Source: Lachnospiraceae bacterium
GTDB lineage: Bacteria; Bacillota; Clostridia; Lachnospirales; Lachnospiraceae
Assembly: GCA_021769135.1 (NCBI GenBank)
Contig: JAETTM010000046.1
Span: 1 to 33,954 of the forward strand
Reading direction: 5' to 3'
Length of the DNA stretch: 33,954 bases
The stretch's first letter is position 1; each line of letters starts with the position of its first letter. A program made the position numbers and the translations under genes. A model generated the notes under the pieces. The model searched no databases. It was given only the letters and a program-made list of their open reading frames with translations, and was not told the DNA's origin. Positions 18,225 through 32,885 of the stretch are shown here, in pieces.

Positions 18225-18428
18225 ATTAAGAAATTTTAAGCTGTGAGAATATTCTGACAATATAGTCTGTTCAAATCCCACTGTGCCAAACATTCCATCA
18301 AGCCCAATAGGACAAAATCATGTCGGCGATAGCGCCTCCATGATTTTATGGTCTTGATTCCATGGCACAAAAGGGCTTTTCACAGACTATATTGTCAGAA
18401 TATTCAGCAAGGTTATTGGTTTCTTAAT
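18225..18428. repeat. 204-bp near-palindromic element
   Basis: Two arms of roughly 100 nt pair along almost their whole length. The ends are ATTAAGAAA (18225-18233) and TTTCTTAAT (18420-18428). A perfect 24-bp block (18247-18270 with 18382-18405), TGTGCCA/TGGCACA and AAAATCATG/CATGATTTT pair in register, and the centre is GGCG-ATAG-CGCC. No ORF is present. It resembles a MITE-like non-autonomous element or a long hairpin RNA; no target duplication was seen. Confidence 0.75.
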
Positions 18429-18483
18429 TTAACAAGATATACAAAAAAAACCGCTGCATAGAAATGCACCGGTTCCAGGCAAT

Positions 18484-18513
18484 CGAGTAGGGGAGGCTTT
18501 TTCCCCCTACTCG
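18484..18513. repeat. 10-bp hairpin next to structured motif
   Basis: CGAGTAGGGG (18484-18493) and CCCCTACTCG (18504-18513) form a perfect 10-bp stem with a 10-nt loop. It directly adjoins the structured repeat at 18521-18560 and may be part of the same folded unit or a minus-strand hairpin without a T-run. Confidence 0.6.
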
Positions 18514-18520
18514 CCGCGCG

Positions 18521-18560
18521 GCCCGCATGCTGCCTTGGCAGCAAACTTCCTTATGCGGGC
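18521..18560 (-). repeat. structured repeat, copy C (minus strand)
   Basis: Read on the minus strand: outer stem GCCCGCA/TGCGGGC, a 10-nt one-sided bulge TAAGGAAGTT, and inner stem TGCTGCC/GGCAGCA with an AA loop. The layout and bulge match copies at 30231-30267 and 32666-32699, with different stem bases. It is followed on the minus strand by GCGCGGCGAG, similar to the flank of copy B. Confidence 0.7.
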
Positions 18561-18569
18561 CTGCGCATA

Positions 18570-18601
18570 AAAAGGCGGTTTTAAAAATAAAACCGCCTTT
18601 T
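18570..18601. terminator. bidirectional terminator
   Basis: AAAGGCGGTTTT (18571-18582) pairs perfectly with AAAACCGCCTTT (18589-18600), loop AAAAAT, with T or A runs on both sides. It lies 50 bp after the stop of the 32-codon minus-strand gene, so it would end that transcript. Confidence 0.85.
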
Positions 18602-20402: not shown

Positions 20403-21428
20403 ATGAAGGTTGGAGTGATTGGATGCGGAGGAATGGGAACAACGCATTATCTGTCCTTAAAAGCCCTGTCAGCGCAGAAGGGCTTGGACGTAGTAGCGCT
20501 TGCCGACTGCAGGAAAGAGTTTTTGGATAAAGCGGCATCTTATTTCCCGGATGCGAAAACATATGAATACGGTATGGACTTGATTGAAAAGGAAGAACTG
20601 GATGTGGTGCATATCTGCCTTCCCAGCTATTTGCATGTGGATCATGCCATAGCCGCCATGGAGAAGGGGATGAACGTTCTGGTGGAAAAACCGGTTTGCC
20701 TGACGAGAGAGGATGGGGAACGGATTCTGGAAGCGGAAAAAAGGACCGGGGTAAAAGTTATGGTAGGGCAGGTTGTCCGTTTCTTCGAGGAATATTCTTA
20801 TTTAAGACAGGCGTATCTGGATAAACGTTTCGGCAAATTAAAATCTATAGTGATGCAGCGGATAAGCGGCGATGTGAAATGGGGATTCGAGGATTGGTTT
20901 CATGATGAGCAAAAGAGTGGTTCCGTAGTACTGGATCTCCATGTGCATGATGTGGATTTCTTAAGATATATGCTGGGCGAGCCTGACGGGTTCGATGTAC
21001 GGGCCACGGCTTTTGACAGCGGGATGATCAACCAGGTAATAACCACTTACCGTTTTGGGGATGTGACGGCAACGGCGGAAGGCGTATGGGACATTTCCCC
21101 GGCATTAAAATTCCAGGCGAATTTCAGGGCATGCTTTGAGGACGCTACAATAGTTTTCAATGGGGCGGAAAACCCTTCGTTGAAAGTATATAAAAAGGAC
21201 GGAACGGTAGAGGTTCCCGAATTGGCACAGGAATACAATGTAACAAGCGATGCGGCCGGAATCAATGTTTCTAATCTTGGCCCGTACTATACGGAAATCA
21301 AATATTTCATTGAGTGCGTACAGGAGGGGAAAGATATCGATATGGCCCAGGTTGGCGAAGGCGTGAAATCCGTGGAACTGGCTTTAAAGGAATGGGAAGC
21401 GGCGAAGGATTATGTGAAAAATCTATGA
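20403..21428 (+). CDS. Gfo/Idh/MocA family oxidoreductase
   Basis: A 341-residue NAD(P)-dependent dehydrogenase. The Rossmann motif GVIGCGGMGTTHY (4-16), the EKP motif (95-97) and the active-site stretch LDLHVHDVDFLRYMLGEP (from 177) are typical. Such enzymes oxidise sugars, inositols or sugar acids; the substrate is unknown. The ATG follows AGAGGTGG and the gene is first in the ROK-controlled run, next to an importer. Its likely job is to oxidise the imported compound in the cytoplasm. Confidence 0.92.
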   Translation: MKVGVIGCGGMGTTHYLSLKALSAQKGLDVVALADCRKEFLDKAASYFPDAKTYEYGMDLIEKEELDVVHICLPSYLHVDHAIAAMEKGMNVLVEKPVCLTREDGERILEAEKRTGVKVMVGQVVRFFEEYSYLRQAYLDKRFGKLKSIVMQRISGDVKWGFEDWFHDEQKSGSVVLDLHVHDVDFLRYMLGEPDGFDVRATAFDSGMINQVITTYRFGDVTATAEGVWDISPALKFQANFRACFEDATIVFNGAENPSLKVYKKDGTVEVPELAQEYNVTSDAAGINVSNLGPYYTEIKYFIECVQEGKDIDMAQVGEGVKSVELALKEWEAAKDYVKNL

Positions 21429-30140: not shown

Positions 30141-30167
30141 GGCACCTCTTGTTGAGGTGCTTTTTTT
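30141..30167 (+). terminator. strong terminator after the small ORF
   Basis: GCACCTC (30142-30148) and GAGGTGC (30154-30160) with a 5-nt loop, followed by seven T (30161-30167). Confidence 0.9.
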
Positions 30168-30205
30168 ATATAATAGGAAATTGCTTTGCAATTACCTATT
30201 ATATA
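30167..30205. repeat. 39-bp near-perfect palindrome
   Basis: TATATAATAGGAAATTGC (30167-30184) and GCAATTACCTATTATATA (30188-30205) pair over 18 bp with one mismatch and a TTT loop. It abuts the terminator. GCCC-TCC-GGGC (30209-30219) and TGCGC-ACTTC-GCGCA (near 30224-30238) follow, so the next 100 nt is a hairpin array. Confidence 0.75.
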
Positions 30206-30230
30206 AAAGCCCTCCGGGCAGGGTGCGCAC

Positions 30231-30267
30231 TTCGCGCATAAGGAAAATGGTTGCTGACGCAACCGCG
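30231..30267 (+). repeat. structured repeat, copy A
   Basis: Inside the array: a short GCGC/GCGC outer stem, a one-sided bulge containing TAAGGAAAAT and an inner hairpin GGTTGC-TGAC-GCAACC. It shares CGCATAAGGAA and GTTGCTGAC with copy B at 32666-32699, and the same layout with copy C at 18521-18560. Confidence 0.7.
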
Positions 30268-30277
30268 CTTTGGCGCG

Positions 30278-30306
30278 AGTGTGCGTTAAAACGCACACTT
30301 TTTTAT
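30278..30306 (+). terminator. terminator in the rtcB leader
   Basis: AGTGTGCGTT (30278-30287) and AACGCACACT (30290-30299) form a 10-bp stem followed by TTTTTTATTTT. It ends 37 bp before the rtcB ATG. No convincing promoter lies between it and rtcB, so rtcB either relies on read-through control or has a weak AT-rich promoter here. Confidence 0.85.
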
Positions 30307-30342
30307 TTTAATTTAATTTTATAGAAAAATGGAGAATGATTT

Positions 30343-31461
30343 ATGGAGATAATAAAAGGAAAGTATTCAGAAGCAAAAGTATTTGCAGATGACATGGAGG
30401 ATTATGCAAGGGCACAGCTTCAGATGATATGCGACAACCCGGTGTCGGAGGGCAGCCGGATAAGGGTAATGCCGGACGTCCATCCGGGGATGGTAGGAAC
30501 GATTGGCCTTACTATGACCGTGGGGAAAAAGGTCATTCCCAACCTTTTGGGCATTGATATCGGATGCGGCATGACCTGTGCAGCGGTCAAAGAAAAAAGG
30601 GTGGAGATGCAGAAGCTGGATAAGGTAATCAGGGAATGCATCCCTGCCGGTTTCCAGGCAAGGAAAAAAGTACACCATATGGCAGAGGGGGGTGGGCTGG
30701 AACGGCTTTGCTGCTATAAGCACATCCATCAGGAAAAAGCCGCCTTAAGCCTTGGAACCCTTGGGGGAGGGAACCATTTTATTGAGGTGGACAAGGATGA
30801 GGATGGAAGGCTGTATATCATCGTCCATTCCGGAAGCAGGCACCTGGGAAAGGAAGTTACGGATTATTATGTGGACGAAGGGGCAGCACTTTTAAAGAAG
30901 GAAGGGATTGAAGTTCCCTATCCTATGACATGGCTGGAAGGGGAGTTGATGGAGGCCTATATCCATGACGTAGGCGTGGCCCAGGAATATGCGCAGTTAA
31001 ACCGGGATATTATCCTTGCGGAGATATTGAAGGGAATGAAACTTAAGGAGACGGAGCGCTTTTCTTCGGCCCATAATTACATGGGAACCCTTGCAGGCGG
31101 GAGGGTTTTGCGCAAAGGGGCCATTTCCGCAGCAAAGGGGGAAAAGGTGATTATCCCCGTGAACATGCGCGACGGTGTAATACTGGGAATAGGGAAAGGG
31201 AATCCTGACTGGAACGAGTCGGCCCCCCATGGCTCCGGCAGATGTATGAGGCGGGATGCGGTAAAAAGCCGCTACACGGTTTCTGCATTTAAAAATGAAA
31301 TGAAGGGCATCTATTGCAGCTGCATCGGTGCGGATACGTTGGATGAAGCGCCGTTTGCCTACCGCGCGATGGAAAAACTGCTGGGGAACATAGAGGATAC
31401 GGTGGAGGTAACCCATAGATTAAAACCAATCTACAATTTTAAAGCAGGCGGGAAAGGATAG
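30343..31461 (+). CDS. rtcB: RtcB family RNA ligase (RtcB2-like)
   Basis: GTP-dependent RNA ligase that joins 2',3'-cyclic phosphate (or 3'-phosphate) and 5'-OH ends. The 372 residues carry the family metal and guanylate motifs: MPDVHPG (43-49), GIDIGCGM with Cys75, GGGNHF with His145, HSGSRHLG (162-169), SSAHNYMG (His244) and the guanylylated His296 in APHGSGR. The short length fits the RtcB types found beside prfH. GGAG lies 7 nt before the ATG. prfH follows after 11 bp. Known PrfH/RtcB pairs free ribosomes stalled by decoding-centre cleavage of 16S rRNA and religate the rRNA, so defence or toxin repair is the likely role. Confidence 0.93.
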   Translation: MEIIKGKYSEAKVFADDMEDYARAQLQMICDNPVSEGSRIRVMPDVHPGMVGTIGLTMTVGKKVIPNLLGIDIGCGMTCAAVKEKRVEMQKLDKVIRECIPAGFQARKKVHHMAEGGGLERLCCYKHIHQEKAALSLGTLGGGNHFIEVDKDEDGRLYIIVHSGSRHLGKEVTDYYVDEGAALLKKEGIEVPYPMTWLEGELMEAYIHDVGVAQEYAQLNRDIILAEILKGMKLKETERFSSAHNYMGTLAGGRVLRKGAISAAKGEKVIIPVNMRDGVILGIGKGNPDWNESAPHGSGRCMRRDAVKSRYTVSAFKNEMKGIYCSCIGADTLDEAPFAYRAMEKLLGNIEDTVEVTHRLKPIYNFKAGGKG

Positions 31462-31472
31462 GGTGATAGAAA

Positions 31473-32078
31473 ATGCTTGTGCAAATCAGTGCGGGGCAGG
31501 GGCCGGAAGAATGCCAGCTGGCTGTAGGAAAATTATTTGATGAATGGAAAAAGGAGTTCCCGGATATTCAGGAAATTGCATCAAGGGAGGGCAGGGGGAA
31601 GGGCTGTTTCCATTCCATCCTTTTTGAAACCGGGGCGGATATGTCATCCCTTGAGGGTACAGTCCTTTGGATATGTAAAAGCCAGGTAAGGCCGGGGCAT
31701 AAAAGGAAGAACTGGTACGTGGACGTGAGCATCATCCCGGAAAGGGAAGAGGTACCTTCAGAAGCGGATTACCGGATTGAGAAGTTCCATAGCGGCGGGA
31801 AGGGCGGGCAGAATGTGAACAAGGTGGAGACAGGGGTAAGGGTCATCCACATCCCCACAGGAATCACAGCTGCCTCTACGGAAGAAAGAAGCCAGTATAT
31901 GAACAAACAGAAAGCATTGAAACGGCTGCAGGGAATCCTTGCAGCCATGGAGCAGGCGGCGGGGGATAAGCAGGCAAACCAGGCATGGAGGGAGCATACA
32001 AGGATTGTCCGGGGGAATCCGGTAAGGGTTTATGAGGGGATGGATTTTCGGCGGAAAACGTCCGGGGGAATTTTGTGA
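31473..32078 (+). CDS. prfH: peptide chain release factor H
   Basis: A 201-residue class I release-factor homologue without the stop-codon recognition domain. The catalytic GGQ is at 111-113 in HSGGKGGQNVNKVETG, and an Arg/Lys-rich C-terminal tail follows. It would hydrolyse peptidyl-tRNA on ribosomes with a cut decoding centre, after which RtcB reseals the 16S rRNA. The 11-bp spacing makes co-transcription with rtcB almost certain. The C-terminus ends in RRKTSGGIL. It differs from PrfB/PrfA by its short N-terminal part. Confidence 0.92.
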   Translation: MLVQISAGQGPEECQLAVGKLFDEWKKEFPDIQEIASREGRGKGCFHSILFETGADMSSLEGTVLWICKSQVRPGHKRKNWYVDVSIIPEREEVPSEADYRIEKFHSGGKGGQNVNKVETGVRVIHIPTGITAASTEERSQYMNKQKALKRLQGILAAMEQAAGDKQANQAWREHTRIVRGNPVRVYEGMDFRRKTSGGIL

Positions 32079-32236: not shown

Positions 32237-32309
32237 AGAGTCAAAGACCCCGCCGCAAGCAGTGGGGCATCAAGCTTGAAACGCCCCAAGGGGCGGGGTA
32301 TTTGACTCT
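32237..32309. repeat. 73-bp palindromic element
   Basis: Arms AGAGTCAAA-GA-CCCCGCC (32237-32254) and GGCGGGG-TA-TTTGACTCT (32292-32309) pair with one mismatch. TGGGGC (32263-32268) and GCCCCA (32283-32288) form an inner stem. It sits exactly where the Doc reading frame begins and where the antitoxin fragment ends, which suggests insertion or recombination at this site. Confidence 0.8.
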
Positions 32310-32551
32310 TGCGGCATTCGCCAAGCATGCAGGCGAAGGCAGCCAGACTATGTTATGGACTGGTAAAGAACCATGCAATGATAGATGGGAATAAGAGGAT
32401 TGGTGCTCATGCTATGCTGGTATTTCTGGCAGTAAATGGGTATGAATTAAGGTACACGCAAAAGGAATTAGTTGATTTAATACTTGATGTAGCGGATGGA
32501 AAGAGGGAATATGAAGATATTTTGTCATGGATTTTGAAACATCAAGTGTAA
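32310..32551 (+). pseudogene. doc: Doc (death-on-curing) toxin, N-terminally truncated
   Basis: The remaining 80 codons match the C-terminal two thirds of Doc/Fic-family toxins, which modify EF-Tu with phosphate. The Fic motif is intact (HAMIDGNKRIGAH), followed by YTQKELVDLILDVADG and the family end. The N-terminal part expected for a full Doc (about 50 residues) is absent; the 73-bp palindrome abuts the first codons. A TTG at 32309 could start a fragment, but no ribosome site fits. It is probably non-functional. Confidence 0.7.
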
Positions 32552-32665
32552 ATGGGGTACAGGCTTTTAAAGGGAACTATGAAAATTTCAGATTCTGAAG
32601 GTTAGCAATTAATGTATTATGAAGGCATTTGCCAGGGATGGCAGATGCTTTTTCTACGCGTAGGA

Positions 32666-32699
32666 CCGCATAAGGAATTTGTTGCTGACTCAACTGCGG
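32666..32699 (+). repeat. structured repeat, copy B
   Basis: CCGCA/TGCGG outer stem, bulge TAAGGAATTT and inner stem GTTG/CAAC with loop CTGACT. GTCGCACAGCGGG follows and resembles GCCGCGCGGCGAG next to copy C. The surrounding 32552-32885 stretch holds no gene I recognise; an ORF of 83 codons there shows no family pattern. Confidence 0.7.
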
Positions 32700-32885
32700 G
32701 TCGCACAGCGGGCCGGGGAAGAACCTGCTATCCGAGAAAGAAATATATGGAAAGGGGCAGATTTAATAGGACTATTGCAGCGGCAAAAAGGGATGAATAT
32801 AAGCAGGCATGCAGGCCGAATATGAACAGGGAAGCCTGGATACGGCGGGGATTGATGGACTAATTTTCTGGTGAAAATCAATGAT

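Follow-up and report, generated by a model that had tools for sequence, protein, structure and literature searches.

Three look-alike hairpins stand in the 33,954-nucleotide stretch of Lachnospiraceae DNA analysed here (the window), and the question that they raise is whether a small folded sequence, whose stems differ between copies and still pair, is an RNA under selection for its structure, as an earlier note on this DNA proposed, or a repeat of another kind.

The three copies in the window

Reading of the sequence confirmed that all three copies are present and that their bulges lie where they had been placed, at 30239-30248 (+), 32671-32680 (+) and 18544-18553 (-). The copy at 30231 is real, with boundaries that had been drawn a few bases off: its stems span 30234-30237/30265-30268 and 30249-30254/30259-30264, and with A30238 unpaired as well its bulge is 11 nt long in the layout first proposed. 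The supposedly fixed bulge motif, TAAGGAANNT, was found five times in the window against 1.75 expected; 7 of 100 shuffles had as many, so that this count is weak by itself and was rejected as sole evidence.

A covariance model (R1) was trained on 20 copies from the same genome, which included the window copies at 18521 and 32666, leaving the copy at 30231 as the sole independent match among the three. Folded alone, the copy at 18521 takes the shape described in the earlier note. The fold of the 30231 copy is also stable (z -4.16), yet its outer arm prefers a competing local fold. In the copy at 32666 the second hairpin is lost, and 139 of 200 shuffles are as stable. The features in the window are as follows.

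18480..18568, minus strand: complete type A copy, with 5' start ATGCGCAG and end ATT (sequence; R1 107.5 bits, E 2.8e-23, in training set; fold z -4.86)
18563-18566/18516-18519, minus strand: helix 1 of the type A copy
18554-18561/18520-18527, minus strand: its outer stem
18544-18553, minus strand: its 10-nt bulge, TAAGGAAGTT
18538-18543/18528-18533, minus strand: its inner hairpin
18504-18513/18484-18493, minus strand: its second hairpin, CGAGTAGGGG..CCCCTACTCG
18569..18601, minus strand: intrinsic-terminator-like hairpin GGCGGTTTTA..TAAAACCGCC with T-tract, directly 5' of the type A copy (sequence; comparison with G205:C293 and G204:C303)
30141..30167, plus strand: hairpin resembling an intrinsic terminator, immediately before the 5' end of the type B repeat (sequence)
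30162..30306, plus strand: stretch that the whole type B repeat probably covers, including a 5' palindrome TATATAATAGGAAATTGC..GCAATTACCTATTATATA and AAAGCCCTCCGGGCAGG (DNA search in genus-mates)
30223..30303, plus strand: type B core copy, first noted at 30231-30267, in which the second hairpin is terminator-like, GTGTGCG..CGCACAC with T-tract (R1 35.9 bits, E 1.2e-6, outside training set; alignment of 12 type B copies)
32625..32654, plus strand: terminator-like hairpin GCATTTGCC..GGCAGATGC with TTTTT, directly 5' of the third copy (sequence)
32656..32738, plus strand: decayed type A-like copy, first noted at 32666-32699, core kept and second hairpin degenerate (R1 42.0 bits, E 4.3e-8, in training set; z +0.59)

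Anatomy of the unit

The complete unit is about 87 nt long and thus exceeds the core seen at first, to which it adds a second hairpin. It starts with TGC[G/A]CAG and the outer stem; a 10-nt purine-rich bulge then leads to the inner hairpin, and a second hairpin and CTACTCGATT close the unit. The best window copy (18480-18568, minus strand) reads ATGCGC, A, outer stem GGCCCGCA and the bulge in its 5' half, then the inner hairpin TGCTGC-CAAG-GCAGCA and the returning outer stem TGCGGGCC, and finally GCGC, GG, the second hairpin and ATT. The first base of the element is variable (A 76, G 9, T 8, C 3; n = 96), giving the starts NTGCGC or NTGCAC.

Type B repeats carry a AATAGGAAATT palindrome and AAAGCCCTCCGGGCAGG before the core and a terminator-like hairpin after it. 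A GCGC ... GCGCG frame is common to the 12 aligned type B copies, apart from one or two that deviate at their 5' side; their stems differ, and pairing is retained as judged by eye. The approximate type B stretch of the window had at least 16 matches in the genus-mate G214 by DNA search. One locus (L119:305-392, minus strand) is a chimera that joins the 5' part of a type B repeat to the 3' part of a type A element, as if the template had been switched during copying inside the core.

Distribution of the family

Further copies, the search for which the earlier note had suggested as a check on its proposal, are present in the same genome, the genus and a sample of the family. When two mismatches at most are allowed, the pattern TGCGCAGNNNNGCATANGGAANNTT matches 25 places of the genome to which the window belongs (G000, 4.4-Mb), and its reverse matches none; an exact, shorter pattern gave 13 places against one for its reverse. 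With R1 this genome yielded at least 52 matches at E<=1 and at least 47 at E<=0.01. Across the genus, 10 of 16 genomes had matches, with 14 to 107 copies each (lower bounds, the best 150 candidates being scored per genome) and the most in G211 (at least 107), G213 (at least 102) and G212 (at least 101); the other six had no R1 match among their best 150 candidates. Scoring the best 21 candidates per genome, again for lower bounds, we found a match in at least 38 of 200 genomes of the family sample (G000 included), although in many of them the match is weak and stands alone.

When named genome contigs were scanned with a pattern, 21 stretches came back, labelled Lachnospiraceae (15), Clostridiales (4) and uncultured bacterium (2), and by these labels the family probably belongs to the Lachnospiraceae. 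No copies were found in plasmids and phages (blastn with the window copy) or in IMG/VR (exact pattern). The literature searched contained no description of an approximately 87-nt, terminator-docking repeat family. The earlier note had recognised no named RNA family, and this has stood: Rfam gave nothing at the element in the window at the gathering score, and at E<=1 five element loci gave one unrelated match, to the L20 leader (E 0.74, 23.8 bits against a cut-off of 58.7).

Conservation of the fold

In the alignment of the 20 own-genome copies, 93.8% of cells are paired against 88.4% in shuffles, and the covariation score of 0.171 (shuffles 0.091) was reached by none of 500 shuffles; further pair types (22 vs 20.4, matched in 112 of 500 shuffles) were the one measure of five that did not exceed the control. 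A multi-genome alignment was built from 96 matches (95 distinct) at E<=0.001, which came from 91 of the 95 loci searched (L039-L097, L102-L128 and L192-L212, i.e. 95 of 107 element loci after 12 were left out as type B or weak: L060, L065, L085-L087, L089-L091, L093-L095 and L097). Here 93.3% of cells are paired against 80.6% in shuffles, 26 of the 28 pairs show changes on both sides, and 345 cells are changed on both sides against 107. The covariation score was 0.402 against 0.175, none of 500 shuffles reached it, and slid controls gave 0.031-0.102; because this alignment was fitted to the model it favours the model, and relatedness among the sequences inflates the shuffle control. The two alignments support the view that selection has kept the fold, and to this extent the earlier proposal appears sound.

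Helix 1 is the weakest part, its third pair being non-standard in 32 of 94 copies, mostly A-C (GCAC vs GCGC). G-U outnumbers A-C by 117 to 61 in helices 2-4 (87 to 36 in helices 3-4), against 8 to 33 in helix 1 (total 125 vs 94), and the excess in helices 3-4 points to RNA rather than DNA as the folded molecule, which may be either RNA or single-stranded DNA.

Docking behind terminators

All three window repeats follow a terminator-like hairpin by reading, the type B core standing at a distance from it with the rest of its repeat between. This address is general: a terminator hairpin with a T-rich tail lies directly 5' of 68 of the 96 aligned copies, while the same test was positive at the other flank once in 96 and at 39 of 1920 random positions in the same loci. 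One further copy was flagged as tandem and 27 of the 96 were neither, 17 of these 27 having four or more consecutive T within the last 14 nt and 10 lacking such a run. At positions -5 to -3 a T is found in 78 to 85 of the 96 copies. The nearest upstream ORF is on the strand of the element in 73 of 92 cases, and 27 of 96 copies overlap an ORF of at least 80 aa, a crude count that short ORFs and extended starts inflate and that was therefore set aside.

Signs of mobility, arrays and truncation

The terminator 5' of the window's type A copy is occupied in G000, and the homologous terminator in the genus-mate G205 is empty, R1 finding nothing at E<=10 in the homologous stretch. G204 carries another variant of the element (43.9 bits, E 2.4e-9) in this intergenic region; it stands behind a second terminator, and this terminator too is empty in G205. 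Because the flanks have diverged too far, the junction cannot be fixed to the base; comparison of the window's type A site with G205 and G204 gave no nucleotide-exact empty site, and therefore no target duplication can be read. At rtcB, the type B repeat is represented in G205 by its 5' part, and the remainder is missing.

The stretches of G202 contain 14 complete matches, of which 11 share at least 94% identity with one copy; four of these are identical, at different places. Units also follow one another head-to-tail, another start (TGC[G/A]CAG) standing directly after 11 of the 96 copies; one of these follow-on units is complete (L102), and the others are cut short or recognisable for a few bases.

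In 396 kb of G211 taken without choosing sites, a profile of 90 of the 96 rows (E<=0.05) found 10 complete copies (one split by the region edge), two 3'-truncated copies and none truncated at the 5' end. The G202 stretches, most of which were chosen around known copies and so are not a fair sample, contain one 3'-truncated copy, two copies with altered first bases, and a palindrome (L300:14423-14456) that is a second hairpin alone, without recognisable core. When the loci were scanned for second hairpins, a core was recognised beside 36 of them and not beside nine; in most of the nine cases the pattern had overlooked the core or the hairpin is on the antisense strand. Truncated copies thus mostly keep the 5' end, which is a tendency and not a rule, because second hairpins without a recognisable core do exist, such as that of the unit before L029. 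Three G202 elements, two complete and one truncated (L301:3135-3167, L301:7673-7759 and L302:10347-10433), have a diverged second copy of their first 15 nt directly before the 5' end, the break always falling at the junction of outer stem and bulge.

The patchy presence in the genus, the variant in the same region, the occupied and empty terminators, the tandem arrays and the truncated copies together indicate that the family is apparently mobile and behaves as a mobile element rather than a regulator.

Neighbouring repeats and genes

Adjoining the type A copy is a 200-bp dispersed repeat with inverted ends (AATATTCTGACAATATAGTCTG; window 18230-18429), which has many copies in G000, G203, G205 and others and looks like a MITE. 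A long palindrome, GTCAAAGACCCCGCC..GGCGGGGTATTTGAC, lies at 32237-32334 and has more than 10 copies in G211 among the matches listed; at L008 a related palindrome replaces the second hairpin of a type A element. The rtcB and prfH-like release factor genes (window 30323-32057) are 95% identical to those of G205, and other matched G205 stretches are about 81-85% identical, a difference which suggests that the pair may have been exchanged between species.

A probable non-autonomous element and its possible mover

We consider it rather probable that the repeat is non-autonomous and that an enzyme acting in trans recognises it as a folded single strand, and we infer from its anatomy and placement how it might move. 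The family would consist of non-coding, non-autonomous mobile elements of about 87 nt. The 5' end of a copy (TGC[G/A]CAG) follows directly on the 3' side of a T-tract, in most cases the T-tract of an intrinsic terminator, and the copy points away from the terminator. A complete copy, ending ...CTACTCGATT in a hairpin, could then have later copies land behind it, which would produce the head-to-tail arrays. The constant purine bulge between two stems of free sequence, together with the constant 5' motif, would be what the enzyme reads on the folded single strand, and the fold would be conserved because this reading depends on it.

The likeliest enzyme would be a single-strand DNA transposase or nickase of the HUH type. 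It would join the element to the T-tract by the 5' end, after which the strand would be completed towards the 3' end, an early stop leaving a 3'-truncated copy; the terminator hairpin may help by exposing a folded, single-stranded target. We deem an HUH-type enzyme the likeliest mover because the layout of the element is like that of the substrate which a REP transposase is reported to need, a strand-specific, single-stranded hairpin that has a bulge and a conserved motif before it (PMC8266576). This assignment is tentative, and a IIC reverse transcriptase seems an unlikely candidate for the same part.

REP/RAYT systems are characterised by a GTAG or CGTC foot at the hairpin and a cognate Y1 (HUH) transposase in the genome. 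Neither foot is seen in the alignment of the element, where the 5' foot is TGC[G/A]CAG and GTAG occurs only inside the arm of the second hairpin. A Y1 transposase (PF01797) was not found in the element-bearing G204, G213 and G214, which are 97, 81 and 92% complete, so that the gene may have been lost in assembly gaps; the other seven element-bearing genomes have one (G208 a fragment only), as have all six element-free ones. The Y1 transposases of G000 are one with an in-frame TAG and one fragment. As its presence does not track the element across the 16 genomes, the Y1 transposase was rejected as a resident partner, and the element is best called REP-like, the absent GTAG foot and the distribution of Y1 transposases leaving membership among REPs without support. 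At one locus of G000 (L098, C152 about 20425-21165) an IS200-like Y1 gene with an in-frame TAG is followed by a group II domain V/VI remnant ending CTACTCGATT.

Alternative explanations

SINEs are copied by the enzymes of LINEs, and group II introns have a bulged branch-point A in domain VI before an AY terminus, and a GUGYG 5' end, a start that was considered for the element (NTGCGC or NTGCAC) as well. The element could be a miniature parasite of group IIC introns, its RNA using the 3' end and terminator target of the intron and being copied into DNA by the reverse transcriptase that the intron encodes. Group II introns of one kind, present in the genus and in other Firmicutes and by our reading probably IIC, end CTACTCGAT (once CTACCCGAT), mostly followed by T (L098, L134-L136, L139, L143, L145 and L213-L218). 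Such introns begin right behind a terminator T-tract wherever the 5' side was seen (L159, L213, L215, L216 and L217), and on a Peribacillus plasmid (L216) the start of a second intron directly follows the first. The element also ends CTACTCGAT, with T as the base after CTCGAT in 57 of the 67 ends recognised among the 96 copies, and in G208 (L154) an intron end runs straight into an element (74 bits). Insertion of IIC introns at intrinsic terminators is described in a review (PMC4424553). The G202 introns L152 and L153 are of another kind, with the same terminator docking and other ends.

Against such a parasite stands the lack of a domain V, RF00029 being absent from the window (gathering score) and from five element loci (E<=1); its matches in G000, two among the 150 of 390 candidates scored, lie elsewhere than the element, and one match in G208 (C65) abuts an element. 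The position of the branch point is base-paired and covaries (UA 47, CG 23, UG 10, other 10; n = 90), and truncated elements mostly keep the 5' end, whereas the two intron remnants examined (L098 and L136/L158) keep the 3' end. A IIC reverse transcriptase query had no match in the element-bearing G000, G211, G213 and G214 and weak ones in G203 and G205, while the element-free G201 and G210 have full-length relatives and G200 and G209 fragments; matches were found in the element-bearing G202, G204, G208 and G212, and none in the element-free G206 and G207; the genomes are incomplete drafts. Different termini (CTACCCTAT, CTACTCGACC) are found on other group II introns of the genus. Neither group II maturase nor IIC reverse transcriptase tracks the element across the 16 genomes, and both were rejected as resident partner. 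Truncation polarity and the missing correlation with the reverse transcriptase led us to demote the parasite from favoured model to an explanation that we now find doubtful. A wider form of the idea is speculative: the family might be a bacterial counterpart of SINEs, an element of about 87 nt without ribozyme core or protein that has acquired the 3' terminus of a IIC intron and its terminator target, is moved by reverse transcription or by some strand-transfer enzyme that reads the bulged fold, and builds arrays on its own terminal hairpin.

That the copies are kept as functional RNA, i.e. as 3' UTR or read-through structures (stabiliser, protein sponge or fail-safe terminator), would account for the covariation of the fold, the G-U excess in helices 2-4 (117 vs 61) and the placement behind genes in the direction of the gene (73 of 92). 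This explanation is improbable given the patchy presence in one genus (6 of 16 without match), the occupied and empty sites, the tandem and truncated copies and the position after rather than before the terminator, owing to which the element would be transcribed from the upstream gene by read-through only. Selection on the fold is retained from the earlier note. Neither a role of the copies as an RNA gene or regulator nor action of the bulge as a Shine-Dalgarno site is supported; the copies are distributed as mobile repeats.

Passive spread by replication or recombination between T-tracts and hairpins, without a dedicated enzyme, is least likely of all: the T-tract at the 5' boundary, the arrays, the 15-nt 5' stubs before three G202 copies and the A/B chimera (L119) would suit it, but neither end varies among dispersed copies, and conservation of the internal fold extends over several genera.

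Significance and comparison with known systems

Read as a non-autonomous mobile element, the repeat represents a large family of structured, mobile sequences that Lachnospiraceae-type genomes carry at an unusual place, immediately behind terminators. From there it could alter read-through and 3' ends at dozens of loci in each genome. A further question is which enzyme moves a folded strand of 90 nt, and why its end and target are shared with group IIC introns.

Like REP/RAYT repeats, the element is an imperfect palindrome with a conserved bulge. Unlike REP/BIME repeats with their TnpA-REP (RAYT), it is about 87 nt long with two hairpins and a 10-nt one-sided purine bulge, docks behind terminators, forms head-to-tail arrays and has no matching Y1 enzyme. 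In the main text of a REP/RAYT comparison (PMC3733652) the words Firmicutes and Clostridi do not occur. The ends of the element, TGC[G/A]CAG and CTCGATT, are not inverted copies of each other in the alignment, as the terminal inverted repeats of a MITE would be. Pneumococcal BOX, RUP and SPRITE are likewise small structured interspersed repeats, and BOX is also built of modular and tandem units (PMC3049150); they differ in layout and hosts, and BOX and RUP have terminal inverted repeats, of which none were seen in the element.

The group III introns of Euglena chloroplasts, described as reduced relatives of group II introns, 90-120 nt long and without domain V (PMC4424553), are similar in size and in the missing domain, but are organellar and spliced, while the element gives no hint of splicing. 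From group IIC introns the element is set apart by the absence of a domain V and of a reverse transcriptase, by its paired branch-point position and by the opposite polarity of truncation; with them it has in common the terminator target, the orientation, the 3' terminus CTACTCGAT followed by T, and tandem insertion, and this agreement in terminus and target is striking.
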